Below, piece after piece: positions 16,519 to 34,900 of a stretch of DNA of 58,353 nucleotides. Under the pieces are notes generated by a model. That model was not told the origin of the DNA, made no database searches, and saw only the letters and a list, made by a program, of their open reading frames with translations. Origin of the DNA: Phycisphaerales bacterium (GTDB lineage: Bacteria; Planctomycetota; Phycisphaerae; Phycisphaerales; SM1A02); contig JAKVBV010000014.1 of the NCBI GenBank assembly GCA_022446965.1, forward strand, positions 1 to 58,353. Reading direction: 5' to 3'. Within the stretch, counting starts at the first letter, position 1; each line of letters begins with the position of its first letter. The position numbers and the translations under genes were made by a program.

Positions 16519-18264
16519 ATGGCTCGTCGAACTCGCGGCAGACAGAAACTCGGTGAGATGCTCGTGCGCGACGGTGTCGTGACCGACGAGCAGGTCGAGT
16601 CCGCCGTCACCACGGCCAAGGCCAGCGGCAAACGGCTGGGCGAGTGTCTCGTGGAGGCAGGCCACTGCACCGATGTCGACGTGGCCAAGGTGCTCGCCGA
16701 GCAGTTTGGCATGGAGTTCAACCCGCTCGAAAGTGGCGAGGATCAACTCGAGGTCGACAAGGACGCCATTCCAGCCGACATCATTCGCAAGTACACCGTG
16801 CTGCCTGGGGGCAAGGGTGGTGGTCGACTCAAACTGCTCGTGCACGATCCGATGGATCTCGATGCGCTTGAAACCATTCGCTTCCGGCTCAACGTCGAAA
16901 TCGCCACGGTGATTTCGCCACGAAGTCGTATCCAGGCCTTGATCGATGAACTCTTCGGTGGTGGCCAAGCGGTCGCCTCCGATTCGCTCGTTACCGAATC
17001 GATCGACGTGTCGGTGGACCGCAGTGTGGACCGTTCGGTCGACGCATCAGTCGACATCGCCGCGGGCGAAGACCAGGCGCCGATCGTGAAGTTGTCCAAC
17101 AAGCTCATCATGGAAGCGGTGCGTGGGCGTGCAAGTGATATCCACATCGAGCCCATGTCCGACCGTGTCGTGTTGCGATACCGCATCGACGGTGTGTGCC
17201 ATGTGCGAGACAATCTGCCCAAGCGTATGCAGGCGGCCTTGCTTGCTCGTGTGAAGTTGATGTCCGGTGTGAACATCGCCGAGCGACGTATTCCGCAAGA
17301 CGGCCGCATCAAGATGGACATCGACGATCAGCAGGTCGACTTCCGTGTGTCGTGCTGTCCTGCCTATCACGGTGAGTCGGTGGTGTTGCGTATTCTGCGG
17401 CCCGACTCGGTGAAGATCGGTCTGCCCAATCTCGGGTTCGAGCAGGACCACCTCGACACCTTCAACAAGATCATCCGTCGGCCCAACGGCATCTTCCTGG
17501 TGACCGGCCCGACCGGTTCGGGCAAGACGACCACGCTGTATTCGGCGCTGGACGTGCTCAACCGGCCCGACCGCAAGATCATCACCGCCGAGGATCCGGT
17601 GGAATACTCCTTCGCCGGCATCAACCAGTGCCAGGTGCATGAGTCCATCGGCCTCACGTTCAGTTCGATTCTGCGGGCCATGTTGCGTCAGGCCCCCAAC
17701 ATCGTGCTGATCGGTGAAATCCGCGATCGAGAAGTGGCCGACATCGCCATTCAGGCCGCCCTCACCGGCCACCTGGTGTTCAGCACGCTGCATACCAACG
17801 ATGCCCCGAGCGCCATCACCCGTCTGATTGACATGGGTGTGAAGCCCTATCTGGCGGCATCGTCGATCCAGGCCATCATGGCCCAACGCCTGATTCGCAC
17901 GCTGTGCAGCTGCAAGGTGCTCGATGACGCCCCCGATGCCAAGCAGCTCCGCGTGGTCGATATCGACCCCGCTGAGGCCGTCGGCAAGGTGCACAAGGCC
18001 GCAGGGTGTGGAAAATGCAACGGCGTGGGCTTCAAAGGCCGAAAAGCGATCTTCGAGATGATGATGATGAGCGCTGAAATCCGCGATTTGGCCTTCTCGC
18101 GAGCCCCGGTCTCGGAACTGCGTGCCGCAGCCCTGCGAACAGGCATGCGGAGCCTTCTGGGAGATGGCAAAGTGAAGATTCTCAATGGTGTCACAACACC
18201 TTCTGAGATCGCAAAGTTCGCCCAAGCGGATACGCTGGTGGAGGCCAATATTGACTCCGAGTGA
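16519..18264 (+). CDS. gspE: GspE/PilB-type secretion ATPase, first copy
   Basis: This cytoplasmic hexameric ATPase powers pseudopilus or pilus assembly. The 581 residues begin with a GspE N1 domain (KLGEMLVRDGVVTDEQ). The catalytic core has Walker A GPTGSGKT (330-337), the Asp box ITAEDPVEY, Walker B NIVLIGEIRD and the His box TGHLVFSTLHTND. A C-terminal cysteine site is present, but its first pair is CSC rather than the usual CxxC; the second is CGKC. A four-fold S-V-D-x repeat (residues 165-179) lies in the linker. AAGGA precedes the ATG by 12 bases. It is the first gene of the operon and is followed after 19 bp by pilT. Confidence 0.92.
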   Translation: MARRTRGRQKLGEMLVRDGVVTDEQVESAVTTAKASGKRLGECLVEAGHCTDVDVAKVLAEQFGMEFNPLESGEDQLEVDKDAIPADIIRKYTVLPGGKGGGRLKLLVHDPMDLDALETIRFRLNVEIATVISPRSRIQALIDELFGGGQAVASDSLVTESIDVSVDRSVDRSVDASVDIAAGEDQAPIVKLSNKLIMEAVRGRASDIHIEPMSDRVVLRYRIDGVCHVRDNLPKRMQAALLARVKLMSGVNIAERRIPQDGRIKMDIDDQQVDFRVSCCPAYHGESVVLRILRPDSVKIGLPNLGFEQDHLDTFNKIIRRPNGIFLVTGPTGSGKTTTLYSALDVLNRPDRKIITAEDPVEYSFAGINQCQVHESIGLTFSSILRAMLRQAPNIVLIGEIRDREVADIAIQAALTGHLVFSTLHTNDAPSAITRLIDMGVKPYLAASSIQAIMAQRLIRTLCSCKVLDDAPDAKQLRVVDIDPAEAVGKVHKAAGCGKCNGVGFKGRKAIFEMMMMSAEIRDLAFSRAPVSELRAAALRTGMRSLLGDGKVKILNGVTTPSEIAKFAQADTLVEANIDSE

Positions 18265-18283
18265 GTCTTGGTGCTGAAGACCG

Positions 18284-19390
18284 ATGTCGACGATTCAGAT
18301 TGACAGACTGCTGGACACGGTGATCCGCGAGGACGCCTCCGACCTTCACATCTCCGTGGGCCGCAAGCCCACGCTGCGTCTGTCCGGTCGCCTCCGCGCC
18401 CTGGACACCAAGGTGCTCGAACCCGATGACACCGTGGCGCTGATGAAGCAGATCACGCCTGAGCGTGGTCAGCAAGAGCTGCAGGAAGTTGGGTCGTGCG
18501 ACTTTGGTTTCGCCTATGGCGACAAGGCCCGCTTCCGTGTGGCCATCTTCCGTCAACGTGGTGCGTTGTCGATGGCGCTGCGGTTGATCCCCAACAAGCT
18601 GCTCACCTTCGAGGAGATCGGTCTGCCCCCCATCTGCAAGGAGTTGATCCGACGGCCGCGTGGCCTGTTCATCGTCACCGGGCCAACGGGTTCGGGCAAG
18701 ACGACGTCGCTGGCCACGATGATCGATTACATCAACACCAATCTCGAGCGGCACATCGTGACCGCCGAAGACCCGATCGAGTACTACCACTATCACAAGA
18801 AATCGGTGGTCAACCAACGTGAGGTGGGGGTGGATGTCCCCAGCTTCTCCGAGGCCCTGCGCCGTGTGCTGCGTGCCGACCCCGACGTGATCCTGGTGGG
18901 CGAAATGCGTGACCTCGAGACGATCGAGGCGGCCATCGCAGCGGCCGAGACGGGCCACTTGGTCTTCGCCACGCTGCACACCACCGGTGCATCGGGCACG
19001 ATCAACAGAATCATCGACGCCTTCCCCACGAATCAGCAGGAGCAGATTCGCGTGCAGTTGTCGGTGTCACTCGTGGCCATCCTTTCGCAGGTCCTCTGCC
19101 GTCGGTCCGACAAGCCAGGCCGCGTGGCGGGCTACGAGTTCCTTGTGGTGACGCCCGCCATCGCGAACCTGATTCGCGAAAACAAGACCTTCCGCATCGA
19201 TTCGGCCATCCAGACGGGCAAGAAGTTCGGCATGCAGTTGCTGGATGACAACCTCTGGGAGAAGTACGAGCGCAACATGATCGACTCCGAGGAGATGATC
19301 GACAAAGCGCGCGACCCTGCCGATCTGACCAACCGAATCCATCGCAGCGGCCGAAAAGTGGGCCGGGCGGAACTGGATCAGCCCGGTTGA
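18284..19390 (+). CDS. pilT: PilT-type pilus retraction ATPase
   Basis: This is a 368-residue ATPase of PilT length. It has the N-terminal PAS-like region (EDASDLHISVGRKP), Walker A GPTGSGKT (133-140), Asp box VTAEDPIEY, Walker B VILVGEMRD and His box TGHLVFATLHTT. The PilT-specific AIRNLIRE motif is present as AIANLIRENKT. In type IV pili this enzyme depolymerises the fibre; type II secretion systems normally lack it. Its position between two assembly ATPases suggests a dynamic, retractable fibre. It is followed by a 174-bp gap with two inverted repeats. Confidence 0.93.
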   Translation: MSTIQIDRLLDTVIREDASDLHISVGRKPTLRLSGRLRALDTKVLEPDDTVALMKQITPERGQQELQEVGSCDFGFAYGDKARFRVAIFRQRGALSMALRLIPNKLLTFEEIGLPPICKELIRRPRGLFIVTGPTGSGKTTSLATMIDYINTNLERHIVTAEDPIEYYHYHKKSVVNQREVGVDVPSFSEALRRVLRADPDVILVGEMRDLETIEAAIAAAETGHLVFATLHTTGASGTINRIIDAFPTNQQEQIRVQLSVSLVAILSQVLCRRSDKPGRVAGYEFLVVTPAIANLIRENKTFRIDSAIQTGKKFGMQLLDDNLWEKYERNMIDSEEMIDKARDPADLTNRIHRSGRKVGRAELDQPG

Positions 19391-19424
19391 CGAATATTTC
19401 AGCGGCCCCAGCTGCAGCCTGAGA

Positions 19425-19456
19425 CCATTGCCAATGGCTGCATGCGTAACGCATGC
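19425..19456. promoter_or_regulatory. two adjacent perfect inverted repeats upstream of pilB
   Basis: CCATTG-C-CAATGG (19425-19437) is followed after two bases by GCATGCGT-A-ACGCATGC (19440-19456). They lie in the 174-bp pilT-pilB gap. There is no U-tract, so an intrinsic terminator is unlikely. Tandem operators or an RNA-processing hairpin fit better. Confidence 0.45.
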
Positions 19457-19564
19457 CAGCCTGCGATCGGGGTTGATGCCGCGCACGATTGGCGGCACAC
19501 TGTACGTAGGGAGACCTCGTGTGCACGCGGGCCTCTTGTATCGCTGAAGGAGCCAGGGTCGGTC

Positions 19565-21373
19565 ATGGCAACCAAGGATCTACGACGCGGCGGCGGACGC
19601 AGCGGGCTCAGCGTGGGTGACCGCGGCTATGCCAATGCTGAACTCAAGGGTCGCCGTTTTGGCCGAGTGCTCACCAAGCTTGGGATGGTCACTCGAGACC
19701 AGGTGCAAGAGGCACTGGGCATTCAGCGCAGCCGCAAGGCCAAGGGGGAGCAGGCCAAGCTCGGCGCCATTCTCATCGAGCAAGGCCGCATCACCGAAGG
19801 CGATGCCATCCGCGCCGCGGCGGGCCAGCAAGGCCTGGATTTTGTCGCCCTCGACCCGGATGCCATCGACGACGCCCTGACCGAGCACCTTCCGGCGGAG
19901 ACAGCGCGGACGTATCAGATCGTGCCGCTTGAGTTTGACAGTGGATCACGCGAACTGACCATCGCGATGAAGTCGGCGGACAACTTCCGCGCCGTCGATG
20001 ATCTGCGTCTTTTGATGGGTTTCAAGGTGGCTGCCGTGGTGGCGCCATCTGACGCCATCGACACCACGCTCGACCGGTTGTACGCCACCGGTGGTAGCAC
20101 TTCGATGCTTGATGTGATGACCGAGCTCGAAGACTCCGATGCCATCGCTGCACTGGCTGGTCGCGGCGACAGCGTGGATCTTGAAGAACTCGCTGCCGCA
20201 TCAGAAGACAACAAGGTGGTGCGACTGCTCAACCTGGTGTTGCTGCAGGCGATCAAGGATAAGGCGTCGGACATCCACTTCGAGCCCTTCGAGCAAGAGT
20301 TCAAGATGCGCTACCGCATCGACGGTGTGCTCTATGAAATGGTGCCCCCGCCCAAGCACCTGGCCTTGCCCATCGTCTCCCGCGTGAAGGTGATGGCCAA
20401 CCTCGATATCGCGGAGCGGCGTCTGCCGCAGGACGGCCGCATCGAGCTCACCGTGCAGGGCAACCCGATCGACCTTCGTGTCGCCGTGCTGCCCACGATG
20501 TACGGCGAGTCGGTGGTGATGCGTGTGCTTGACCGCAGCAACGTGGAACTGTCGCTCGACCGCATTGGCCTGCGCGAGGACGAGTTCGAGACGATGTCTG
20601 ATCTCATTCGTAAGCCCAACGGCGTGGTGTTGATCACCGGGCCCACCGGTTCGGGCAAGACGACCACCCTCTACGCCGCATTGAGCACTCTCAATGAGCC
20701 CGAGCACAAGATCCTCACGGCCGAAGATCCAGTCGAATACGACATTGACGGCCTGATCCAGTGCCAGGTGAACACCGATCAAGAGCTGACGTTCGCCAAG
20801 CTGCTGCGGTCGTTTCTGCGTCAAGACCCCGACACCATTCTGGTGGGTGAGATTCGTGACCTTGAAACGGCACAGATCGCCATTCAGGCATCGCTCACAG
20901 GTCACCTCGTGTTCAGCACCCTGCACACCAATGATGCGCCGTCCACAGTGCTGCGAATGGTCGACCTCGGTGTGGAGTCGTTCCTTATCACCGCCACGGT
21001 GGAAGCGATCGTGGCCCAGCGGCTCGTGCGACGCATCTGCGCCAAGTGCAAGGAAGCCTACACGCCCAGTGAGACGGAGCTCATGGAGCTCAATCTGCGA
21101 CCGGAAGATGTCAAGGGACGCACCTTCCACCGCGGCAAGGGTTGCGGCGAGTGCAATGGCAGCGGCTACAAGGGCCGACTGGCTCTGTTTGAAATCCTCG
21201 AGCTCGACGACACCATGCGAGAGCTCATCATGAATCAGGCCTCCACGGCGGTGCTGCGTGCCGAAGCACGCAAGCGCGGCATGCGCACGCTGCGTGAGTC
21301 GGGCCTTTTGTCCATCTACGACGGCCGTACGACCCTCGACGAGGTCCTGCGCGAAACGATCGTCGAGGAGTAG
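19565..21373 (+). CDS. pilB: PilB/GspE-type assembly ATPase, second copy
   Basis: A second assembly ATPase of 602 residues. It has an N1 domain (RFGRVLTKLGMVTRDQVQEAL), an N2 domain, and a catalytic core with Walker A GPTGSGKT (359-366), Asp box LTAEDPVEY, Walker B TILVGEIRD and His box TGHLVFSTLHTND. The zinc site is canonical (CAKC and CGEC). It is clearly paralogous to the first ATPase but diverged in the N-terminal half. Start at ATG 19565, with AAGGAG twelve bases upstream. It lies 7 bp before pilC, so it is probably the partner of that platform protein, while the first ATPase may drive another machine or another state. Confidence 0.92.
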   Translation: MATKDLRRGGGRSGLSVGDRGYANAELKGRRFGRVLTKLGMVTRDQVQEALGIQRSRKAKGEQAKLGAILIEQGRITEGDAIRAAAGQQGLDFVALDPDAIDDALTEHLPAETARTYQIVPLEFDSGSRELTIAMKSADNFRAVDDLRLLMGFKVAAVVAPSDAIDTTLDRLYATGGSTSMLDVMTELEDSDAIAALAGRGDSVDLEELAAASEDNKVVRLLNLVLLQAIKDKASDIHFEPFEQEFKMRYRIDGVLYEMVPPPKHLALPIVSRVKVMANLDIAERRLPQDGRIELTVQGNPIDLRVAVLPTMYGESVVMRVLDRSNVELSLDRIGLREDEFETMSDLIRKPNGVVLITGPTGSGKTTTLYAALSTLNEPEHKILTAEDPVEYDIDGLIQCQVNTDQELTFAKLLRSFLRQDPDTILVGEIRDLETAQIAIQASLTGHLVFSTLHTNDAPSTVLRMVDLGVESFLITATVEAIVAQRLVRRICAKCKEAYTPSETELMELNLRPEDVKGRTFHRGKGCGECNGSGYKGRLALFEILELDDTMRELIMNQASTAVLRAEARKRGMRTLRESGLLSIYDGRTTLDEVLRETIVEE

Positions 21374-21380
21374 CGTCGCA

Positions 21381-22712
21381 ATGGTCAACTGGCAGTACGA
21401 AGCACTGGATGCAGGGGGCAAGAACGTCTCGGGGACAATTGAGGCGACCAGCAGCGATGAAGCGATTCAGCAGCTGCGGGGCCAGGGTCTGTTCCCCACG
21501 ACCGTCACCGAAGAAGGCGCCGATGAGAAGTCGGGCTTGTTCGGACGTGGTGGTCGCAAGAACAAGAAGAAGTCGCCCAAGAAGGGGGCCAAGGGCGAGA
21601 AGAAGAAGGGCGAGATCAACATCAACTTCCGCCTGCCGAGCATTGGTCGCGTCAAGACCAAGGTGCTTACGCAGTTCACGCGGCAGTTGTCCACTCTGCA
21701 GGATGCAGGTTTGCCGCTGCTGCGGTCGCTTCAGATTCTCGAGCAACAGCAGAAGCCCGGCCTGATGAAGAGCACCATGGGCAACGTGGTGAACGAAGTG
21801 GAATCGGGCGCGTCGCTGTCCGATGCCTTCGGCAAGAGCCCGCGTGCATTTGACCGCCTCTATGTGAAGATGGTGGCCGCCGGTGAGCTCGGTGGTGTGC
21901 TGGACGTGATTCTGCAGCGTCTGGCCAACTTCATGGAGAAGTCGCAACGGCTCAAGAGCCGCATCAAGGGCGCCATGATCTACCCGGTGGTGGTGATCTT
22001 CATCGCCGTGTTCATTGTGACGGGCATCATGTACTTCGTGATCCCCAAGTTCCAGCAGATCTTCCTGGACTTCAAGATCGCCTTGCCCAAGATCACGTTG
22101 GTCCTCATGGACGCCAGCACTTGGGTGGCCGGAACCAATTCAGGACAAGTGGTGCCCGGATGGGCGGTGATCGTGGCTTCGCCCGTTGTCATCGTTGTGG
22201 GCATCAAGTTCCTGCGCAAAACGAAATTCGGTCGTGCCGCATTCGACTGGATTCTCATCAAACTTCCCATCGTGGGCATGTTGGTTCGCAAGACCACCGT
22301 GGCCCGATTCACACGCACGCTCGGCACGCTTGTGAGCGCCGGTGTGCCGATTCTGGAAGCCATCAACATCACCCGTGACACGTGTGGAAACTGGGTTTAT
22401 GAACGAGCCCTGCAGCGCGTCCACGATTCGATCAGAGAAGGTGAGACATTCTCCGAGCCCCTCCGGGAAGCCAAGGTGTGTGACAGCATTGTGGTGAACA
22501 TGATCGATGTGGGGGAGGAAACGGGTGACCTTGACGTGATGCTCAGCAAGATTGCTGACAACTACGACGAGGAAGTGGACGTCGCCGTGGGCTCCATGCT
22601 CAGTCTGCTCGAGCCATTGCTGATTTGTGTCTTGGGCACGATCGTGGGCACCATTGTGTTGGCGTTGTTCATGCCGCTGGTGACCATGATTCAGGACATC
22701 TCCGGAGGATGA
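21381..22712 (+). CDS. pilC: PilC/GspF inner-membrane platform protein
   Basis: This inner-membrane protein couples the ATPase to pilin extraction. Its 443 residues contain two GspF domains (LTQFTRQLSTLQDAGLPLL and FTRTLGTLVSAGVPILEAI), a membrane segment after the first and two around the second. An unusual polybasic linker, RKNKKKSPKKGAKGEKKK (residues 59-76), sits between the N-terminal cytoplasmic part and the first domain. GAGGAG lies ten bases before the ATG. The TGA overlaps the first possible ATG of the next gene. Confidence 0.93.
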   Translation: MVNWQYEALDAGGKNVSGTIEATSSDEAIQQLRGQGLFPTTVTEEGADEKSGLFGRGGRKNKKKSPKKGAKGEKKKGEININFRLPSIGRVKTKVLTQFTRQLSTLQDAGLPLLRSLQILEQQQKPGLMKSTMGNVVNEVESGASLSDAFGKSPRAFDRLYVKMVAAGELGGVLDVILQRLANFMEKSQRLKSRIKGAMIYPVVVIFIAVFIVTGIMYFVIPKFQQIFLDFKIALPKITLVLMDASTWVAGTNSGQVVPGWAVIVASPVVIVVGIKFLRKTKFGRAAFDWILIKLPIVGMLVRKTTVARFTRTLGTLVSAGVPILEAINITRDTCGNWVYERALQRVHDSIREGETFSEPLREAKVCDSIVVNMIDVGEETGDLDVMLSKIADNYDEEVDVAVGSMLSLLEPLLICVLGTIVGTIVLALFMPLVTMIQDISGG

Positions 22713-22714
22713 GC

Positions 22715-23923
22715 ATGCGTCGTCCCGGTTTCACCATCATCGAACTGCTCGTCGTCCTGGCGATCATCTCGGTGCTCGTGGGCATCCTCGTGGTGGCCAT
22801 CGGCGGCGGACGCGAAGCCGCCCGTGAGTCCACGACGCGGTCGCGCATGGGTGCAATGGTGCAGGCCGTCGAGCGGTTCGAAGGTGACACCGGCTATTTG
22901 CCACCGTTGCTCGACAATGACCGCAGTGGCATCAATGGGCTTGAACCAACCTGGCGTACTGGCGGTAGTGGTCCGGATTACCTCCGCTTCATGCAGGGGT
23001 TCTATTCCTACACCTCGCCGGCGGAATACCTGCTTGGCTACGGCCCCGCGGAGCAGGACGGCCATGATGGCCTTGGCCTGCGTCGCCCTGGTGATGATGG
23101 GTTCTGGGGTGCGTTGAACACCGACATGCTGGGCAATGCTGATGGCACGCCCGCCTTGGACGAACGTCGGCCGCCGCAAGGCACGAGCACATCCAACTTC
23201 AGCACCCATCGTGGTGCGGTGCTTGGCCCGTATCTCGACATCGATGATCTGTCGATGGTGGGGGCACTCGGTGGCGACATCAATGGTTGGGACGGCTCCA
23301 TCGATCCGGTCAGTGGGCAGCCCCGCATCTACATGGCCGGGGATGAGGGCTACGACCCCGATGCGCCCAAGGTGATCCTTGATGCGTGGGGCGGTCCTAT
23401 CCGGTACTACCGCGTGAACCACCAACCAGGCAATCCCGCTGGACGATTCGGCGCGGGCTACGTGCCCCCTGGGCACGATGGCGTGCCGCCGGACTACGTG
23501 GCCGACTGGACGCACACGCCGAGCTTGTCCGAGTTCTTCGTGCTGCGGCCGTATGACATCAGTCCCGACGACGCCATCACGTGGATCTTCCGTGATGCGG
23601 ATGGCCAGCACTGGGGCGACTTCCAGGGCGTCGGTTCAGGGTCGACTGGTGATCCCTTCGGTGATCCCACGACGACAGCGGGCTTGAATGCAGGTCGCTT
23701 CGCGTTCTTCTCTGCTGGCCCGGACCGAGTGCTATTCCCATGGGCACGTGTGGACAACCCGAGCGATGCCGATGGGCGATTGCAATGGTTGGGGAATCAC
23801 TCAGATCGCACGGCGCGGGTGTGGTCCGACGACAACCATGAGTCCATCATGGCTGACGGCGTGTATCCCACGGTCGACACCGAAGAAGCCAATGCCGACA
23901 ACATCGTGGAGATCGGTCGATGA
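22715..23923 (+). CDS. GspG-like pseudopilin, enlarged
   Basis: The type IV prepilin signal is MRRPG/FTIIELLVV with Glu5 and a long hydrophobic helix. The rest is a large globular domain. The GspG family marker LDAWGGPIRYYR (from about residue 222) and the late FFSAGPDR (about 331-338) identify it as a major-pseudopilin relative. At 402 residues it is almost three times the usual GspG (about 140). The ATG at 22715 is preferred over 22709 because GGAGG at 22704-22708 is then six bases away instead of adjacent. Its stop overlaps the next start (ATGA). Confidence 0.8.
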   Translation: MRRPGFTIIELLVVLAIISVLVGILVVAIGGGREAARESTTRSRMGAMVQAVERFEGDTGYLPPLLDNDRSGINGLEPTWRTGGSGPDYLRFMQGFYSYTSPAEYLLGYGPAEQDGHDGLGLRRPGDDGFWGALNTDMLGNADGTPALDERRPPQGTSTSNFSTHRGAVLGPYLDIDDLSMVGALGGDINGWDGSIDPVSGQPRIYMAGDEGYDPDAPKVILDAWGGPIRYYRVNHQPGNPAGRFGAGYVPPGHDGVPPDYVADWTHTPSLSEFFVLRPYDISPDDAITWIFRDADGQHWGDFQGVGSGSTGDPFGDPTTTAGLNAGRFAFFSAGPDRVLFPWARVDNPSDADGRLQWLGNHSDRTARVWSDDNHESIMADGVYPTVDTEEANADNIVEIGR

Positions 23924-24777
23924 GCCCGCGTTACACCATGAACGCGTCGCACCGTCGCGCCTTCACGCTGGTGGAGGTAATGGCCGCCATCGTCATCATC
24001 GCGATCCTGGCGGTTATCACGCTGTCGGTGGGTTCGGCGCTGATCGAACGCACCGAGCGTCGTCGCACCGAAGACATGCTGAACATTCTTGATGCAGCGA
24101 TCCTCGAATACGAGAGCGCTGTAGGCCGGCAACTGTCCTACGGTCAGGATGGCTATCCCTTGGGCAGTGGCGTGAATGACGGCGTGTTCGATGCGTATCA
24201 GGGCTCTGCCTATGACATCAAGTATCAGCCGGGCGCCGTGGGCTTCCCTGATCCACTTGACGGTGGATTCCCAACGGGCGATGTGCCTGAATCGGGCGCC
24301 AACGGCTACCGTCGCCGCCTCGGTGGGGAGAACCCGTATGTCATGTGGGAGGTGCTTACCCGCAAGTTGCTCGCGGTTGAGTCCTGCCGCAACATCCTGC
24401 TGAATGCGGATCCCGATCTGATCGAACCACTGGTCGACGCCGACGTGGTTGAGAGCTACTTCAAAGATGCTTGGGGTTCGCCGATTCTCGTGGTCTTCCC
24501 CGGCCGCGATATCTACCGCGATCTTGACGGCATGCCTGGTGATGGGGCCGACATCACACTTCGAGATGAAGACGGCACGATCCGCACTCGTGCCGAGCGC
24601 ATCCTTGGCCCGGCCCGCAACAAGCGGGTGTACTTCGTCAGTGCCGGCCCAGATCGCCGCTTTGGTGACCTCGAGTATCAGGTGCAGGCGGGGGAGACAT
24701 GGGATCCCGATCGTACGGCGGTTGAAATGCGTCGCACTGATGACAACATCTACTCGTACGAGGTGCGGACATGGTGA
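23920..24777 (+). CDS. second GspG-like pseudopilin
   Basis: A 285-residue protein with prepilin motif RRA/FTLVEVMAAIVI, so the -1 residue is Ala instead of Gly. Glu5 is present. The GspG-type features KDAWGSPILVVF (from residue 182) and VSAGPDRRFGDLE (from about 240) resemble the D-x-WG-x-P and C-terminal calcium-loop segments of GspG. ATGA overlap with the gene before, and GGAGA seven bases upstream. It is the smallest pseudopilin of the set, so it may be the major fibre subunit; the adjacent 402-residue paralogue may be a variant. Confidence 0.8.
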   Translation: MSPRYTMNASHRRAFTLVEVMAAIVIIAILAVITLSVGSALIERTERRRTEDMLNILDAAILEYESAVGRQLSYGQDGYPLGSGVNDGVFDAYQGSAYDIKYQPGAVGFPDPLDGGFPTGDVPESGANGYRRRLGGENPYVMWEVLTRKLLAVESCRNILLNADPDLIEPLVDADVVESYFKDAWGSPILVVFPGRDIYRDLDGMPGDGADITLRDEDGTIRTRAERILGPARNKRVYFVSAGPDRRFGDLEYQVQAGETWDPDRTAVEMRRTDDNIYSYEVRTW

Positions 24778-25775
24778 ACCGGTCTGCATCCCGTCTCGGC
24801 TTCACGCTGATCGAGCTGCTCGCGGTGGTGGCGATCCTCGCCATCGTGGGTGTGATCACCGTGGTGTCGTATACCTCGATCATTGCCGACGTGCGTCGCA
24901 CTTCGGCGGTGGAACAGGTGAAGGGACTGCTCGGACAGGCTCGCACGCTTGCGCTCAAGAGCGGCACCACCACGATGCTGGCCTTCCGGGCGCGACGCAT
25001 CAATAACACGCCCCGCATGGAAGCGATCATCGCCCAGCCTGCCGGTGGTGCCAAAGACTGGCAACTGCCCGACACCGCCACACCAGAGATTGAGCCCCCG
25101 GGCCATATGCGACAGGTGCGGGTCACGCGCTTTCTGCCAGTGGAGGGTGTTGATCCCGTGTTGCTGCCCCCAGGCGCTGAGATTGCCGTGCCCGGTCACG
25201 CCATCAGCAACCCGGACACCGGTGGTGGCCAGACCTTCTCGTTGGAGTACTCCGGCGACATCCAGTACCTGCCGCCTTCACATCTGGGCGATCTGGCTGA
25301 GGCCAACGGCATCATGCCCGGCATCCTGTTCGGCCGGGATGGTGCCCCTGTGACCGGTGTGCCCGAGCATCAATCCCGCTTCGGATGGATCGATTTCGAC
25401 GGCGACGGCTATCAGGGCCTCCATGGCGGTGAGTACAGCCTGCTCGATGGCGACTTCCCCGATGCAGCGGGCTGCTTCGTCCTGCCGCGGCTCACGCCCG
25501 GGTCTGGCGCCTTCGCGCCGATCGTGGAGTATGCCGAGTGGTGGCCAATGTGTCAGGACGACGAACTCGACGAACCGTGGGTGATGACCGGGCCGTTTCT
25601 TGTCGTGTACGACTCGAGTGAACTTCGCTCGATAGAGGCCGTACAAGACTGGCCGCCCACCCATGAAGGGTCGGCCAATCGATCGTGGGCCCATACTCGC
25701 TTCATCGATGACTACGGTCGCCGGCTGTTCTTCAATCGCTACACGGGCGTGAGCCTGGAGGAGTCTGATCGATGA
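24771..25775 (+). CDS. GspH-like minor pseudopilin
   Basis: A 334-residue protein with a canonical prepilin signal, RLG/FTLIELLAVVAI, followed by VEQVKGLLGQARTLALKSG, which resembles the GspH/FimT helix region. The C-terminal 220 residues form a Gly/Pro/Asp-rich domain I do not recognise; it includes DFDGDGYQG (calcium-loop-like). Typical GspH is about 170 residues. It overlaps the preceding gene by seven bases and the next by four, so the order is held by translational coupling. Confidence 0.75.
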   Translation: MVNRSASRLGFTLIELLAVVAILAIVGVITVVSYTSIIADVRRTSAVEQVKGLLGQARTLALKSGTTTMLAFRARRINNTPRMEAIIAQPAGGAKDWQLPDTATPEIEPPGHMRQVRVTRFLPVEGVDPVLLPPGAEIAVPGHAISNPDTGGGQTFSLEYSGDIQYLPPSHLGDLAEANGIMPGILFGRDGAPVTGVPEHQSRFGWIDFDGDGYQGLHGGEYSLLDGDFPDAAGCFVLPRLTPGSGAFAPIVEYAEWWPMCQDDELDEPWVMTGPFLVVYDSSELRSIEAVQDWPPTHEGSANRSWAHTRFIDDYGRRLFFNRYTGVSLEESDR

Positions 25776-27103
25776 TCACGAATCGTGTCCATCGCGGCGG
25801 CTTCTCGCTGATCGAACTGCTGCTTGCCATCTTCATTCTGGGCCTCGGCCTTATCTCGATCGCCGCGCTGTTTCCGGCGGGCATCGTGATGCAGCAACAG
25901 GCCGAAGACGAGTTCTACGGGCCGGTGGTGGCTGAGCACGCCATGGGTGTACTTCGCAGCCGTCTGCGTCCTGAAGACTTCGGGTCCTGGTGGGACTTCG
26001 CGCAGTTGCAGGCCGATGAACTGAGCGCTGATGGCGGTGATGGGCAGGCCTTGCTCACGGAGATGCGGGCCACCTTGGCCAACGAAAGCTTCGTGCAACT
26101 CGGTGCGTGGTTGCGACTCACAGATTGGCCGTGGTTGCGTCCGAGCCTGGTGGTGAACGCGCCTCAGGGCGAAGGCGAACTGGACGGTGCGATCGATGTG
26201 TTCAATCACTATGGCTGGTCCAGTGCCAACGCCACGGTGGGGGAACAGACCGCTGATGCCGATCATCCTTGGCGGCGTTTCCTTGGGTTTGCACCAGATG
26301 ACTTCGACCAGACCGCCTTGGGCGTGCCGTTCAATCCCTATGACAATGTGATCGAAGGCGAGTATGTGCCGCCGCGTGTGATGGTGTCGTCAGCCGAGCG
26401 GTCGTGGCCACCGCCAGATGGCTCGGGCAACCGTCCTCGCTATTTCTGGGATTGCGCCTTCCGCAAGATCGGTGACCGCGTGCAGGCTGCTGTGTTCGTG
26501 TACCGAGCCACGGCCTCCACACTGACAGCGCCGTCATTCAAGCCCGGTGCCACGGCACTGGATCCTTCAGGTGCAGAAGTCCCCGCGGTGCCGTATCGCC
26601 TGCCGCTGGAGCGTGTTGGCACGGTGCAGCAGTGGATGCCCGGTCACGGGGCCGCTGATGATCCATTGCCGATCTACGACATGACGCAGAACGTGAACGA
26701 TCTTGGTCATGCGTGGATGCAGTCCGGGCAGTGGGTGATGGACCAGATGGGCACCGTGCATCGTGTGGCGTCCGGCCGTGATCGCAATGGCAGTGAGAAT
26801 GACGTCCTCTTGACATCGCCGGTGCCGGGTCCGGTGGTCGGTGCCATGCTCGATACCAATGATTACGCCATCGGTGACATCGCGTACTTCACTGCTTCCA
26901 CGGCCCTGCCGCCCTACACGTTCTCTTTCCTTAGGCAGCCCGACTTCCGCCACGGCGTGCTGCGGCACCCGGATGCTGCGGGTGTCATCCACCCCGATCC
27001 GAGGTCGGTGGATCACCTGTTCTACATGCCGTCCGAATTGCCCGGACCTGGCGGTGTGACGTACTTCATCGAACCAGTCTTCATCGGGGTGGAAGATCTG
27101 TGA
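25772..27103 (+). CDS. GspI/PilV-like minor pseudopilin, enlarged
   Basis: The prepilin signal is RGG/FSLIELLLAIFILGLGLISIAAL, and the ILGLGL run is characteristic of GspI/PilV. The remaining 400 residues are a Trp/Pro/Asp-rich domain without a recognised family. Typical GspI is about 120 residues; this one has 443. ATGA overlap with the previous gene. In type II secretion, GspI starts the I-J-K tip complex, and the position before the J- and K-like genes fits that role. Confidence 0.75.
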   Translation: MITNRVHRGGFSLIELLLAIFILGLGLISIAALFPAGIVMQQQAEDEFYGPVVAEHAMGVLRSRLRPEDFGSWWDFAQLQADELSADGGDGQALLTEMRATLANESFVQLGAWLRLTDWPWLRPSLVVNAPQGEGELDGAIDVFNHYGWSSANATVGEQTADADHPWRRFLGFAPDDFDQTALGVPFNPYDNVIEGEYVPPRVMVSSAERSWPPPDGSGNRPRYFWDCAFRKIGDRVQAAVFVYRATASTLTAPSFKPGATALDPSGAEVPAVPYRLPLERVGTVQQWMPGHGAADDPLPIYDMTQNVNDLGHAWMQSGQWVMDQMGTVHRVASGRDRNGSENDVLLTSPVPGPVVGAMLDTNDYAIGDIAYFTASTALPPYTFSFLRQPDFRHGVLRHPDAAGVIHPDPRSVDHLFYMPSELPGPGGVTYFIEPVFIGVEDL

Positions 27104-28992
27104 TGCGACGTGCCTTCACCATGATCGAACTGCTCGTGGCCATCGCCGTCCTCGTGGCGTTGATCCTGGTCACTGCGCAGGTGTTCCAGAATGCGTCAGC
27201 CCTCACCCGTGCCGGGCAAGCGGCCGGTGACGTGGTGCAGGAAGCAGTGGCGATTGAACGTCAAGTGCGTGACGACCTCGCCCGCTTGTCTCCTGATGGT
27301 GTGCTGGGCATTCACAGCGTTGAAGTGCCCAACAACTACAACCGCGAACGATGGGACGGCACCGGCGTGCGTCCGGGGTTGATCAATCCCGCCCTGGCCC
27401 CCGAAGCACCCGTGCGTTGCGATCAGTTGGTGTTCTTTGTCGAGGGCTTTGAACGCAGCCTTGGCTTTGGATCGAATCTCGGGTATTCGGCCCTGCCGGG
27501 CATGGCGCCCAAGACCATCGGGCAGGCGGGCATGATTCGCTACGGCCATGCCCTGCAGTTTCCCGAACTGGGCCGCTACGAGGCACGCCCGGGCATGGTG
27601 GCGCAAGGGCAGCCCACGCTCACAGCGCAGGACGTGGATCTCAACGCCCTGCGTGATGGCGAGGGGCTGTTGCGAACCTTGATGCCCTTCCATCAGCCCA
27701 ATGTCGACAGCCCATACGGCGGCGTATTGCCCACTGCGTGGACCACCTACACGTTGGGCAACACAGGTGGTGCGGCCAATCTGTACAACCAAACGTCCGC
27801 GCCGTCCATCAGCGGCGGTCAGCCTGAAGCACGGCGGTGGTTGTTCACACGAACTGCGGTTGCGCTGGGCGATGACGACACCGGAGCGCCCAACGCGGCA
27901 TCCAAGCGTGTCTATCAGAACGAAACACTTTCGCAGGAGACACTGTTGCCCTTCGACCCCCGCGAGGCTTCAGGTTCTCAGGCGGGCTTCAGTCCCAAGG
28001 CGCCGGTGATCGACTACGGCCGAGCTGATGTGAGTGCCATGTCGCTGGCCGATCTTCGTGGGGCGATGCTGATGTCGCGCAATGCCGGTGGGGGCGTGGC
28101 CCGCCGGCCCTGGATTGCCGGGGTCGACGATCCCGACGGCACACACTACGTCTATGACGACGGCGTCCCCGGCGACGGCGACCAACGGGCCTTGCTCAAG
28201 ACCCTCTTCGCGCATGCCCGGGCTGAGCGTGAGCCCCCGGGCAATGCCCGATTCGACCAGATGTTGACGAACCCGGTGCTCGGTTCAGCCGTTTCCAACT
28301 TCATCGTGGAATGGACCTGGGATGAAGAAGTTGGCGGTGCATCGGGCGTGCGCTGGCCTCGCCTCGTGGATGCCGATGTGCGTTGGCATGGCCATCGCCT
28401 CGACGCCACGCAGGTGCCGCAGGCCCTCGATGGCCTGATCGATCCGCCTGCGGGCGTGGCGGATTCGCCGTCTGACGGCATCGAGCCGAGCCTCGATGCC
28501 TTGTGGTTCGGCCTGCCATCGCGCACCGACGGCAACGGCACCGCCGAGCAATGGGACCGTCGCGTGGTGACCTTCGGGCAGTTCGGCGTGAGTGCGCCGG
28601 GCCTCGCTGTGGGCGAGCCCATCTATGAGGGCGACGAATACGAACTGACGGCACCGGCCACAGCTGCCGCCTCGTTGATCTGGGTCGATCCCAATGACGA
28701 GGATCCGACGGACATCGACAACCTCAACGCCATTGATGAAATCGATACCGAGGGGGCCTTCGGTAGCGTGCCCCGTGTGCGTGAGTACTGGGCGCTCTTT
28801 GGCCCCAACGCTGCATCGCCGCTATTGAACATCGACATCGACAACAACGGCGTGCTCGATCGCGATCCTTCATTCACGCCGTGGCCCACGGCACTTCGTT
28901 TCACCATGACGGTGCACGACCCTGCGACCACCCTCGAAGGCGGCCGTGTCGTGCAGTTTGTCGTGCCATTGCCCCGGCGAATGGGTGACTGA
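27103..28992 (+). CDS. GspJ/PilW-like minor pseudopilin, enlarged
   Basis: The prepilin signal MRRA/FTMIELLVAIAVLV has Ala at -1 and a leader of only four residues. The helix is followed by EAVAIERQVRDDLARL, as in GspJ/PilW. The protein has 629 residues, about three times a normal GspJ. The C-terminal third is acidic and contains NIDIDNNGVLDRDPS, another calcium-loop-like segment, and ends in a beta-rich stretch. ATG 27103 is preferred over the overlapping GTG at 27100; its A is shared with the preceding TGA. It lies three bases before the giant gene. Confidence 0.75.
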   Translation: MRRAFTMIELLVAIAVLVALILVTAQVFQNASALTRAGQAAGDVVQEAVAIERQVRDDLARLSPDGVLGIHSVEVPNNYNRERWDGTGVRPGLINPALAPEAPVRCDQLVFFVEGFERSLGFGSNLGYSALPGMAPKTIGQAGMIRYGHALQFPELGRYEARPGMVAQGQPTLTAQDVDLNALRDGEGLLRTLMPFHQPNVDSPYGGVLPTAWTTYTLGNTGGAANLYNQTSAPSISGGQPEARRWLFTRTAVALGDDDTGAPNAASKRVYQNETLSQETLLPFDPREASGSQAGFSPKAPVIDYGRADVSAMSLADLRGAMLMSRNAGGGVARRPWIAGVDDPDGTHYVYDDGVPGDGDQRALLKTLFAHARAEREPPGNARFDQMLTNPVLGSAVSNFIVEWTWDEEVGGASGVRWPRLVDADVRWHGHRLDATQVPQALDGLIDPPAGVADSPSDGIEPSLDALWFGLPSRTDGNGTAEQWDRRVVTFGQFGVSAPGLAVGEPIYEGDEYELTAPATAAASLIWVDPNDEDPTDIDNLNAIDEIDTEGAFGSVPRVREYWALFGPNAASPLLNIDIDNNGVLDRDPSFTPWPTALRFTMTVHDPATTLEGGRVVQFVVPLPRRMGD

Positions 28993-28995
28993 TCC

Positions 28996-31900
28996 ATGAT
29001 GCATCACACCACATCCAACACCATCACTCGCTCGACGCCGTGGATGCGTCCGGGCAACGCCGTCATTCTGGTGTCGGCCTTGCTCGTGTTGCTGGTGCTC
29101 ATCGCGACGGTCTTCTTGAGCCGCATGCGATCCATGCGACAGGCTGGACTGGCCACGCGCGTGGCCATGGAACGCGACGACGCCGTGGAAGGTGTGGCCG
29201 AAGCCGTGGCCAGCGAGATCGCTGGCAACCTGTTCCCCCGCGCCATCGACTATGACCTGACGATTGAATTCGCTGGCGGGCAACCGCCGGATCAAGGCCG
29301 TCGCAAGGCTGCCGCCGCAGACGCGGTGCGCTATGGCCGTGACAGCTTCTTTGCGTGGAACCACGCTCCGCACGCCACCGTGCCGTGGACCAATCCACCC
29401 GACTGGGCCACGTGGCCCATCAAGCCCGGTCCACTGCGTGAGATGACGATCGATGGTGTGTCGTGGTCCATGGCCGACTGGATGTGGCCAGAGGAGCCGC
29501 ACAACGACACCGGTACCAACCCACTGCGGTTGTTCCCGGGCTACTCCGATCCATCCGACATCACCGCGGGCGTCGTGCCTGAGCGGGCCATCTATGACCC
29601 GGCCCAGAATCCTCTGGGTGATCCAGGGATCGCCGATTCGCGATTCCTGCGTGACATTGAACCACAGCGTGTAGGTGCTCGAACACGTGACTACAGCGGC
29701 AGCTTTGATGCCGACTACGACGCCACTCGCGATCTTGACTTTGCCGGTGGACGCATGGCCAACATGTTCTCGCACTGGCGGCACATGTCGTACATGCCCG
29801 CGGCCTGGAATGGCTGGCGCGTGGTGCGCGACATCGCTGACGTCACCGGCGTGCGTACGGCCTTGGGCCCTGACGGCTATCCCGATGGCGAAACGGCGTG
29901 GGCCGACGGTCGTGTGTACTACGGCGGTCTGCTGAACCGACTCGACGTGCCGATCGAGCAGTTTCCCGCCGTGGTTCCGTCTCGACTGGGCGACCGGATC
30001 ACCGGCGGCTTTGATGTCGACGGCGACGGTGTGCTTAACGGGCTGGCCGACCACGACAACGGTGCCGCTGTCTTTCTGGCTCCCGATGGCGTGCGGGCCC
30101 GCATCGATTGGGACGATCCGCTGCACGAATACGTATCGGAGTTCAATTGGGACCACTGGGACCGCATGCGCAGTTGGATGACGCCGCTGGGGTGGCGTCG
30201 TGCCATGGAGTTGTCCAAGTTCGGGGCCGGCGAACTGTTGCCCGTGAACTTCTATCGCCTCGAAGATCTCGATGGCGACGGTGTGACGAACGAAATCGGC
30301 GAGCGGTCCAGTGATGAATTCGTCAAGGACACGTCCCGCTGGCATGTGGGCCGCACATTGGCCGACGCCGACGGCGACGGCTTCACGGATTCGTTCTGGA
30401 ATCTGGTGCCCCATGACGGCAACGACGGCACACGGCAGATCGTGGCGGTGTCGGTGACCGACAACACCGGGCGTCTCAATGTGAACACCGCGACGCGGTT
30501 CTTTCCATACGACCGCAACAACACATCGTCGCGCTACAACAGCGAATCGACCCGTGGACACACCCCGGCAGATCTCGCTCTGGTGGGGCAGAACCGCGCG
30601 CCCTATGGCGACAACGACGACACGTTCGATCCCCGCGACACGGCCACGTGGAATGTGGGCTTCTTCGATTACGAAGGACATCAGCCGATCTTCCAGACGG
30701 CGTCGCAGGAGAACGACGGCTTCTCTCTCCTGCAGCCCAATTGGAATCGTGGCTGGAGTCCGTTCTTGTGGGACCCATGGGACAGCAACTCGACCATCGA
30801 TGCGCTTGTGGGGTGGAAGGCCGAACGCTGGCAGGAGCCTGATGATTGGACCCGCAGCCTGCTGGGCAATCTGGGCTATCGCGGCAATCTTGGCTATCCC
30901 GATGGCAGTGCGCCGTTGGCCGACGTCAATGATCGCGACAACCGAACTTACATCAGCCAATCGTCCTCCGGCCAATGGCGCAGTCCACAAGCCGTGAACA
31001 CGCCGTTCACCCTGTCGGATGAACTCGAGCTGCGTGCCTACGAAGGTAACTCGATGCCGTGGTTGATCTCTCGGCTCGAGCGGGCCACGGGCGATTTGAG
31101 TGAAGGCTGGGGCGACGGCGTGCATCCACTGCACGGGCAGTTTGAACGCGCCGAGAGCGTCGAAGGTATGGATCGTCTGGACAACCGCCAGCTCACGGCG
31201 GATCTGCGTCACCGATTGACCACCATCAACGGTGCTCGTAACGACGTGATGCCTTCGCATCTGTGGTGGGAAAACCGTGCCCCGATGCCCGATCCACGCA
31301 CGCTCACGCTGCCGGGCACCGCTGGTGGCATCACGCCCACCACGCCCGAAGCGATGGCGCAACTCTACGACGATGCTGCGGCGCAGTTCCGCGAGAAGAT
31401 CGATCTGCGTGAGTGGGGGCAGCAGGTGCTGCGGCAAGACTGGCTCGACTTTGTCGGCGTTGACATGCTTGATCAGCTGGGGTGGTTCCGTCGTCGCAGC
31501 ATGGAGCAGCGTCTGCCCCACAGTCTGATGCTGGCCTTGACCGGTGGCTATGTCACCGAGCGTGAGCCTGTTGATCCGGTGACCTGGTTGCCCACGGACA
31601 TCAACGGCGACGGGCGGGCGGACCCCGCCCAGCGTCATGCCTATCACGGCTACGACAACGAAGCGTGGGAACGCACACGACGCAGTGCGGCGGCACTGGC
31701 GCAGAGCATCGCCGCGCGTCGCATGCCCCGGATCATCCGTCCCGGAACACAAGACGGCGTGGGCACCACTTTCGACATGGGTCCGTATCCGCTGTACGTG
31801 CAGGATCCGGCCAACCTCGACGCCGTCAACCGTGCACATCAAGTGTCGGGCGCCCAGCCGTTGCCTGTGTTCCTGCCTGGCAGCGAACCCAGTTTCCCAT

Positions 31901-34900
31901 TCGACCCGCTGACCACGGTCTTAGCCTCCGGGCAGCAGTTGCTTGGCGGTCTTGACCAGTGGAACTCATGGCCTCAGAAGGTGGGCGATGCGCCGCTCAT
32001 CAACATCTCTCCGGCGGCGCCCAATCTCATCGATGACGCGATCGACCTGTCAGATGCAGGCGGCTCCAATGCATTTGTAGGCACGCGACGACTGGAAGCA
32101 ATGTCCACCAGTGGCCTGGGGAGTTTGAACAATGCCCTGTGGGGCCCGTGGGAAGAGCTCGACGTGCCCGTGGACGTCACCGGCGATCAGATCGCCGATC
32201 TCACGGTGAACCGCGCCGCTGGCGATCTCTACCAGTCGGTCTGGGATCCGCACATCTTCGTGCAGCGTGCTGAGCCTCAGCCCGTCATCGGTGAGATTTT
32301 CGTGGCCCATGTTGGTCGCCCGTGGATGATTCCCGGCGACCGCGGCACGAGCCCGGAGACCTTTGGCTTCCCCAATTCCAACGAGTGGCTCATGCTCGCC
32401 GCCTACGGCGATGACGATCGTGAGAAACTCGGTAATGGCACCGACGGCAACGGCACCGATTCGCCCTTCATGCCGCCCACGGATTGCGATGACCTCGATG
32501 ACTTCATCGAGCCCGTTGCACCGCACACGGTGTTGGCCGTGCAGATTCTCAATCCCTTCGACGTGCCGATTCGGCTGTTCGATTACAACCCGCTCTCACA
32601 GCAGTGGGACCTGCCGCGCTTCAGTGTGAAGTTCCTGCGTGAGAATCGCTACGACCCCGAGTCCGAGGCGTCGTACGAGATCGTGTTGGCGCCCAACTCG
32701 ATCAACCGCGGCGCAGCCTATGACGCCACTGCACCGCGCATCGAGCCGCTGTCCAACGGCATGCACGCCACGGCCACCGTGGGGGATCGCTTCACGCCTG
32801 GCGATCTGAATACGCCCTGGTATCTGCCCCCGGCCTCGGAAGATCGGCCCTACGCGCTCACCATTCTGCTCAATGGCGTGGAAGCCATGGAAGGTGGGCT
32901 CGAGGAATTCGATTCCACACAAGCGGGCTGGGATGCCGTCAACATGATCATCGATCAGGACGGTCAATCGCAGTTGGCCTCTGGTCAATTGAACAATCTG
33001 GACGCGGCCATCTACGCTGGTGCCGCTCCCGGTGGCTCGGGCGACGGCATCTCTGATGAGGCCGAAGCCTGGATCGACTTCCTCGATTTGCTGCCGTCCG
33101 AACAGCCCTTTGGTGATGTCATCAGCGACCCAAGCGGCGTGTACGCCCGTGCCATCGGCGCCGGCGACATGGTCTGGCGGGTGGTCGCGGATGAAACGCT
33201 TGTCGATAGCAATGGCGACAACATCCTGCCCATGTTCGCCAGCGACTGGTACGACGAAGACGTCGAGCCTGCGGGTGGCATGTTCAACGGGCCCTCAATC
33301 GATCCGTCCATTGGTGTGGGTGTTGAACTTGTTCGCAAGGTGTATCAGTTCGCCGATCCCGACTTCGACGGGATCCGTCAGGTTGCAGATCTGCTGCCTG
33401 TGGACGGCAACGCCGATGGGGGGTTCTCGCATCAAGATGCCGTGGATGTGGTGATCGATCGCACGGTTGGAGCTGACGGCAAGGATGAGTTCGGTGTGTT
33501 GCTGACCGACCAGATGGCGCGATTCCGTCTGCCGTCATTCGGGGATCTTGATTCGCTGTCGGCCAACTTTATGCCCCAGCCCGGTGATCAGCAGACCGGC
33601 AACGGTTTCCCGATGCGGGGCAAGGAAGGCACCGGCAATGGTGTGGGTGGCACGCCCGACCTCCGTTATCCGCGTGTGCTTTCAGACTGGCCCAGTACGC
33701 TCAATCAGGGCGAATCCGGGCTGCAGGATCCCGACAGCAACGGCTTCACGTCGCTCCCGAGCGTTTTCCGGGTGGATCCCTACTTTGCACGCTGGACCCA
33801 ATGGGCCCGCTATGCCCGACCATGGTCGGTGGACGACTTCGACGAAGACGTCACCGATCAGGCCGACGTCTTCTGGCCGTCGCCCGAGCAGCTCGGTCGA
33901 CTTGGTCGTCATCTTGCACGTCCGGACCGTCGCGGGCCACGCTTCGCCATCGGCGAAGGTCGTGTGACGGCCTCATGGACGCGCGATGCCGCCATCGGTC
34001 TGAACACCATGCCCGCTGGTGGCACCACCGGTGGCATCAACGAATCGGCACAGCTCAGCCTACGTCCGGCCGCATATCAGGTGGGTTCACTTGGCAATGC
34101 GGCTGTGTTGGCCGAGGACCCAATCCTTATCGACGCCAACCTCCCCCCTGTGGATCCCATCGAACTCGCCAGGCTGTTGCAGGCCGCGGGCATGACTGGT
34201 GGCTCGATCGACATCCTGACACAGGGTGACCCCGACGAACGCGATGAACTCGTGCGTGTCTTGCGTAGTCGTCGCTATGCCGAGCAGTCTTTGCGCACCG
34301 CACCCAACAGCGACATGCCCTCGGGCTCGGTCGCCTCGCTGGGCCGCTGGTATATCAACGACGGCGATACATCGGCCACGAACATCGAGGCCCGCGAGAT
34401 CGGCATCGGCATTCTCGATGATCCTCGCTACGACGCAGGTATGCCGTCGAATTCTGAACTGCTCAATGGTGTGGTGTGGAATGACAACGAGTACCTCGTG
34501 GAAGACTTCACTGACGGTTCGGTGGCCGATGAAGGTTGGCCGCTGGTCTACGGCCGATTCAACAACACCGTGCCGCCCAACCCTTTCGCCGAGATCGACG
34601 AAGGCAATCCAGTGCGGGTGGGCTCCACCTACCACGACGCCTTGGGCTGGACGCACGGTCGTTTCTTCGATTGGCGATGGGACCCCGAGGGTCTGGGCCG
34701 CTACGACTTCGACGGTGACGGCCAGGTGAATGATCCGGCCACCATGGCCGATGCGCACGGCTGGGATCAGACCGGCATCAACGGCAACATTTACGGCAAC
34801 CCGTACGGCTACCCCTGGATGACGCGAACGGCCCGTCTGCCTTGGCGGCTGCGTACCAACAGTACCCAGCCAGATGTGGACGCCACCGAGTACCACGGCT

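Follow-up and report, generated by a model that had tools for sequence, protein, structure and literature searches.

In the draft genome of a Phycisphaerales bacterium (GTDB lineage Planctomycetota; Phycisphaerae; Phycisphaerales; SM1A02; GenBank assembly GCA_022446965.1), two genes for assembly ATPases of the PilB/GspE family, which we call B1 and B2, flank a gene for the retraction ATPase PilT and are followed by a gene for the inner-membrane platform PilC. Five prepilin genes (G, H, I, J and K) and a giant gene, X, come after them. All lie on contig JAKVBV010000014.1, of which we analysed a stretch of 58,353 nucleotides (the window). The B1-PilT-B2-PilC cassette is kept across much of Planctomycetota and is not an oddity of one genome. 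On balance, we think that the locus supplies the motors, the platform and the fibre components of a type IV filament that would be retractable: two extension motors would share one PilC, and PilT would pull the filament back.

Conservation of the cassette

Gene order was compared among 30 loci from the same family that had been picked by PilT alone, the window's included (L012-L041, about 4 kb each). B1 lies directly upstream of PilT in 30/30 and B2 directly downstream in 27/30; among the remaining three, two end at a contig edge and one (L024) shows no B2. A further 59 longer loci were found mostly with B1 as the query, so that B1 is present there by construction. PilT was found in 56 of these, always after B1, and the other three end before PilT. 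Where the sequence reaches far enough, B2 comes next in 50/50 and PilC follows in 45/45. PilT itself has a counterpart of at least 72% identity in 56 of the 61 family genomes, and the five others are 55-91% complete.

For the phylum as a whole, 50 loci were picked by PilT from 148 Planctomycetota genomes, mostly one per family code and with preference for hits away from contig ends. Two low-identity controls without B1-PilT-B2 (L206 and L207) were excluded. In the 48 loci retained, B1 is directly upstream of PilT in 44 and B2 directly downstream in 42; all four genes stand in order in 35, and in another four B1-PilT-B2 has no adjacent PilC. These locus counts include near-copies (L042 and L133 are apparently the same record, and L049 and L050 score alike). 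PilT at 50% identity or more was found in 113/148 of the sampled genomes, a few of these matches being partial. One Planctomycetota locus, from Brocadiaceae, reads B1-B2-PilC. Beyond the phylum, B1-PilT-B2 occurs in one Sumerlaeota/BRC1 locus, and three Omnitrophota loci hold B1-B2, with one partner present only as a short piece in two of them. Such conservation of gene order argues that the arrangement is not due to chance. The initial annotation, made from the window, had pointed to two assembly ATPases around PilT ahead of PilC and prepilins, and the intact genes and their conserved order bear this out. Phycisphaerae-like cassette genes were also seen in records titled Bacteroidia and Singulisphaera (L080, L079 and L084), which are possibly mis-binned or mis-named.

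The two assembly ATPases

We determined how B1 and B2 are related in ATPase trees of 57 rows and, in a larger version, 82 rows. In the 57-row tree, all B1 sequences group with the first PilB of Omnitrophota, Sumerlaeota and Brocadiaceae (support 97/91), while all B2 sequences group with the second PilBs of the same three lineages (98/95). A larger clade (97/95) joins B1, B2, the planctomycete ATPases resembling those of type II secretion systems (T2SS) and a set of lone ATPases named C2E, separate from the PilBs of Geobacter and gammaproteobacteria. The placement of Escherichia coli GspE, on a long branch, is unsure. Sequences outside the tree were assigned to B1 or B2 by their best score against profiles built from the two clades, whose members include the Omnitrophota, Sumerlaeota and Brocadiaceae rows. 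A tandem duplication of PilB confined to Planctomycetota was rejected by the tree and by an approximately unbiased (AU) test (p-AU 0.0001), a value that is weakened because the tested group was named after the tree had been seen. The simplest reading of these phylogenies would be that the split between B1 and B2 is older than Planctomycetota, Omnitrophota and Sumerlaeota; transfer between phyla could also have produced the distribution.

An alignment of 108 B1, 90 B2 and 19 other PilB/GspE sequences revealed two neighbouring positions that set B1 apart. The D-P-D motif before Walker B, present in B2 and the other sequences, is mostly A-P-N in B1: the 106 unique B1 sequences (duplicates were dropped only where the last 350 residues were identical) comprise 94 APN, 3 APD, 3 SPD, 2 APQ, 2 APE, 1 SPN and 1 DPN, the last from Brocadiaceae. 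The first Asp is thus absent from 105/106 unique B1 and kept in 90/90 B2, including six rows that the D-P-D search expression had missed, and in 19/19 others. Three further positions separate B1 from B2 less sharply. By the alignment and the catalytic E395, A392 of the window's B1 corresponds to position 387 of PilB from Geobacter metallireducens, and N394 to position 389 (PMC5424180).

From the same paper, 11 functional PilB residues were mapped, among them E395 and the pore residue E400. In G. metallireducens numbering, R271, R286, T327, E357, E395, T411, H413 and H420 are identical in 108/108 B1, and the others are kept in nearly all (R455 in 107/108, R257 in 104/108 and E400 in 101/108). 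Because the mapped catalytic residues are kept, we predict that B1 is functional as an ATPase and carries a single local change. The zinc sites, which had been proposed to distinguish the two motors, do differ in the window (C-S-C in B1 and CxxC in B2). This difference is not diagnostic and was rejected as a way to tell the two kinds of motor apart, as the CxC spacing, to which C-S-C belongs, is a local form that occurs in just 9/108 B1, and CxxC occurs in 92/108, with 7/108 outside the search expression.

Both motors carry an N-terminal MshEN domain (PF05157; B1 53.1 and B2 59.8 bits, Pfam cut-off 23.1). The MshE-related motif model for cyclic diguanosine monophosphate (c-di-GMP), NF053729 (cut-off 38 bits), gives 54.4 bits for B1 and 33.9-34.1 bits, just under the cut-off, for B2; in a chosen set of 24 sequences each, 24/24 B1 and 24/24 B2 match it at E ≤ 0.001. 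Because both extension motors carry MshEN, extension by B1 and B2 is probably gated by c-di-GMP.

Layout of the locus and other filament genes

The four motor and platform genes are intact within 16519-22712, and the five prepilin genes and X continue to 37041 (Table 1). We chose the ATG at 19565 as the start of B2, where the frame is already open from 19442, and the ATG at 21381 as that of PilC. Junctions from B2 to X measure -7 to +7 bases, that between B1 and PilT 19 bases and that between PilT and B2 174 bases. The last (19391-19564) is the operon's sole long gap. Because the gap at this place is often longer than other junctions in relatives too, B2 may be under separate control. A hairpin is present in the window's gap; as a conserved element it was rejected, since none of the relatives listed share it. 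The length of X ranges between 1560 and 2703 aa across the window and three relatives (L134, L122 and L137); its two ends are conserved and its middle part is variable.

Table 1. Genes of the B1-PilT-B2-PilC locus in the window (aa, amino acids)
Gene	Coordinates	Strand	Features
B1, first assembly ATPase, PilB/GspE family	16519..18264	+	581 aa; N-terminal MshEN; A-P-N for D-P-D before Walker B
PilT retraction ATPase	18284..19390	+	368 aa; passes TIGR01420; C-terminal AIANLIRE
B2, second assembly ATPase, PilB/GspE family	19565..21373	+	602 aa; MshEN; canonical D-P-D
PilC/GspF inner-membrane platform	21381..22712	+	443 aa
Prepilin G	22709..23923	+	GspG-like N-terminus; DAWGGPIRY segment
Prepilin H	23920..24777	+	prepilin N-terminus by profile
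Prepilin I	24771..25775	+	GspH/ComGD-like N-terminus; weak Verru_Chthon D match
Prepilin J	25772..27103	+	PilV-like N-terminus
Prepilin K	27100..28992	+	GspJ/ComGF-like N-terminus; weak Verru_Chthon C match
X, GspK position	28996..37041	+	2681 aa; hydrophobic N-terminal segment (by eye); VNINTAP step near C-terminus

PilT scores 445 bits against TIGR01420, above the NCBIfam cut-off of 319, and has AIANLIRE, a PilT motif, in its C-terminal part. B1 and B2 pass the Pfam cut-off of the T2SSE/PilT-like ATPase superfamily (PF00437) with Walker A, the catalytic Glu and the Asp and His boxes intact. The cut-offs of more specific models were all missed, namely those of PilB (TIGR02538; B1 575 and B2 623 bits, cut-off 676) and GspE (TIGR02533; 555 and 608 bits, cut-off 630), both of which are strongly matched, and, by far, that of TfpB (NF053534; 417 and 449 bits, cut-off 850). 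A structure model of B1 (mean predicted local distance difference test, pLDDT, 68; predicted template modelling score, pTM, 0.42) was not used.

Each of the five prepilins passes PF07963 (N_methyl; G, H, I and J) or TIGR02532 (G, H, I and K). Prepilins G, I, J and K match the GspG, GspH/ComGD, PilV and GspJ/ComGF models, respectively, at their N-termini and below the cut-offs; their order therefore resembles GspG-H-I-J, with X in the place of GspK. The DAWGGPIRY segment of prepilin G resembles the GspG motif, DPWGxPY. A structure model of prepilin G (mean pLDDT 56) had no Foldseek match in the PDB at E ≤ 0.001; pilins or pseudopilins account for 12 of its 13 weaker matches, two of these being fusions. 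X matches T2SSK (PF03934) only weakly (E 0.046), so we rejected its identification as GspK and retained the resemblance. The NCBIfam search returned no match for the window's X. It had also been suggested that the locus mixes traits of type IV pili (T4P) and T2SS. That description is fair for this single conserved operon with PilT and PilC, because its prepilin N-termini are Gsp- or PilV-like and its ATPases group with planctomycete type II ATPases.

The window is one of 112 contigs (C19) of a 2.24 Mb genome that is 97% complete. Profile searches of this genome returned 10 PF00437, 3 secretin, 1 prepilin peptidase and 3 PilM_2 matches, as well as 10 T2SSF domains in five proteins. Contig C36 carries a T2SS-like locus, with E, F, K and secretin recognised by profile and the other genes by position. 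On contig C55, a pilin-like gene, PilM and PilQ were identified by profile, and three genes between PilM and PilQ occupy the N-O-P position; no PF00437 match was found on this contig, and hence no ATPase at this locus. PilM of this type is present in 51 of the 61 family genomes at 1e-10, many of the matches being weak.

A different PilM homologue, PilM* (728 aa, contig C46; PF11104, E 5e-35), is matched at E ≤ 5.1e-114 in 55/61 family genomes. It comes first in a three-gene operon, PilM*-N*-O*, in 10/10 examined loci; N* and O* are named by position only, and N* has no Pfam match in the window genome. This unlinked operon is the probable anchor of the cassette's machine, but the link is weak. 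By eye, PilM* has a glycine-rich C-terminal part (operon at L138 10013-14749; also L152-L160). Three relatives have T2SSE-family ATPases roughly 8 kb downstream of this operon, and the N-terminal domain of these ATPases looks FHA-like by eye (L154 14564-16381, L158 15713-17596 and L159 15780-17582).

Another secretin domain of the window genome lies in an open frame of 3103 aa on contig C2 (L005 9606-18917 and L011); the frame is between 2400 and 5000 aa long in ten relatives. Neighbours of this giant secretin include GspF, recognised by profile, and K-, L- and M-like genes, recognised by position and similarity; no GspE is adjacent. The lone ATPase C2E is found elsewhere in the three giant-secretin genomes that were inspected (G000, G009 and G022). 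We also observed a conserved gene pair that encodes one PilT-like and one divergent GspE-like ATPase (L008 9492-12298; also L130 and L143); both fall outside the Walker A search expression.

Possible mechanism and comparison with known systems

In the reading that we prefer, prepilins G to K and the giant X would form the filament and its tip. B1 and B2 would extend it on the same PilC, either alternately or one after the other, with c-di-GMP gating extension through the MshEN domains of both, and PilT would retract the filament on the same platform. PilM*-N*-O* would serve as the anchor. Because no dedicated secretin was found, the machine would either borrow a secretin or use an unrecognised exit. 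Motor switching and retraction, both already proposed in the initial annotation, are inferred from PilT and from the precedent of Acinetobacter baylyi, discussed below. It is also possible, though we find it rather doubtful, that the cassette marks a distinct class of filament in Planctomycetota and some neighbouring phyla. In this class, anciently separate B1 and B2 partners would work on one platform without a dedicated secretin, and the cycle of B1, altered by the loss of D-P-D, would start, slow or hand over extension.

Several results weigh against the retractable two-motor filament. The sister relationship of B1 and B2 has a support of only 62/13 in the 57-row tree, and both motors fall under the PilB as well as the GspE cut-offs, which leaves their type open. 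One uncut family locus in 30 (L024) yielded no B2, and the 48 phylum loci include five with B1-PilT and no adjacent B2, three with PilT-B2 and no adjacent B1, and one with PilT alone. No secretin, GspC/L/M or PilM/N/O/P was recognised at the cassette locus. PilM* was found in none of the other loci, in a search whose positive control recovered PilM*, N* and O* in 10/10 PilM* loci. The six family genomes without a strong PilM* match (G014, G043, G046, G047, G048 and G058) and the five without the cassette PilT (G003, G024, G029, G046 and G047) overlap in only two.

B1 might be an accessory of B2 and not an independent motor, either in mixed rings or as a B2-dependent ATPase, in the way that PilU depends on PilT, a known pair (PMC6762196). 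The loss of D-P-D, which would then reflect a changed ring, is fixed in B1 only, and B1 and B2 mostly flank PilT. Some relaxation would be expected of an accessory, whereas B1 has kept Walker A, the catalytic Glu, the Arg fingers, the Asp and His boxes and, in most sequences, the cysteines of the zinc site. Moreover, some loci have no B2 next to B1, although B2 may lie elsewhere there, non-adjacent copies not having been searched. We regard this explanation as rather unlikely. That B1 and B2 serve different machines, with one of them on loan to a system that lacks an ATPase of its own, for instance the giant-secretin system with its GspF-K-L-M-like genes, appears improbable. Inspection of G000, G009 and G022 showed no ATPase gene next to that system, and an extension ATPase is, as a rule, specific for a single machinery (PMC11656802). 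However, C2E is present in all three of these genomes and fits better than B1 or B2, and G039 (98% complete) keeps both B1 and B2 while neither of its two secretin matches is of the giant kind. Nor does lending fit the single PilC that follows both B genes in 45/45 loci reaching that far and in 35/48 phylum loci.

It is still less probable, in our view very much so, that the cassette is the motor part of an ordinary type IVa pilus whose remaining genes form the unlinked PilM-PilQ locus on C55. That locus has the pilus components described above and no ATPase, and the corresponding locus in G009 has no PilT, so PilT may be shared. In G036, G034, G019 and G009, however, the same PilM shares a contig with a secretin and, at a distance of 9-12 kb, with a PilB and a PilC that belong to that locus. 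In the window genome, C55 ends at the PilM-PilQ locus and C25 starts with a PilB fragment and PilC, and we infer that the two contigs join. Given the PilB and PilC of the four relatives, we rejected the idea that the PilM-PilQ locus has no motors but those of the cassette; the cassette therefore looks like a further machine. In addition, the cassette is present in G022 (91% complete) and G039, which have no PilQ-like protein among their secretin loci. In each of these genomes, a weaker secretin-domain match without similarity to the query PilQ, GspD or giant secretin was seen (L146 and L141, respectively). A separate pilus locus owning B1 and PilT had been named at the outset as the counter-case. 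A PilM-PilQ locus does exist, with motor genes of its own in relatives, and B1 and PilT stand together in 30/30 PilT-picked family loci, so both belong to the cassette.

The listings and passages available from open-licence literature on planctomycete pili, PilB motors, Verru_Chthon and Omnitrophota hold no description of the cassette. In Rhodopirellula baltica, salt induces pilT (RB12773), pilB (RB12774), pilC (RB12781) and pilM (RB2860), as stated in PMC2754498; these genes, known by name, are candidate counterparts only. Planctopirus limnophila is a planctomycete for which gene deletion is established, and its pilQ-like mutants are viable (PMC11958385). Pili-like fibres of planctomycete crateriform structures bind dextran, and the main text of PMC5394234, which reports on them, does not use the words 'pilus', 'type IV', 'PilT' or 'secretin'. 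The cassette may bear on these fibres. A 2024 review (PMC11656802) devotes a section to the purpose of multiple PilB homologues, with A. baylyi as its example of two ATPases. A pair of motors in one operon across a phylum bears on that question; the two clades reach Omnitrophota and Sumerlaeota, and one clean sequence difference separates the motors.

Compared with known systems, the cassette locus is like a type IVa pilus in uniting a PilT above its cut-off, PilB-family ATPases (by family and not by equivalog cut-off), PilC and prepilins. It differs in having two PilB-family genes, the giant X and a prepilin order nearer to GspG-H-I-J, and in that no PilMNOP or PilQ was recognised beside it. 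The prepilin order, with X resembling GspK in position, and the grouping of B1 and B2 with planctomycete GspE (97/95) recall a T2SS. Unlike a T2SS, the locus has PilT and two assembly ATPases and no recognised GspC/D/L/M, and the window genome has its separate T2SS-like locus on C36. Verru_Chthon proteins (TIGR02596/2599/2600) are weakly matched by prepilin I (D), prepilin K (C) and the X of a relative (A), but the scores of 20, 18 and 16 bits are far from the respective cut-offs of 70, 256 and 332. Two of these three matches cover only the prepilin N-terminus, and the window's X has none.

A close parallel is the T4P of A. baylyi, for which two phylogenetically distinct extension ATPases have been reported in one system. 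Both PilB and TfpB are needed there for optimal T4P production, and TfpB has been hypothesised to prime extension and PilB to maintain it (PMC11656802 and PMC8213720). In contrast, B1 and B2 score far under the TfpB model, and they lie in one operon around PilT that recurs across the phylum.

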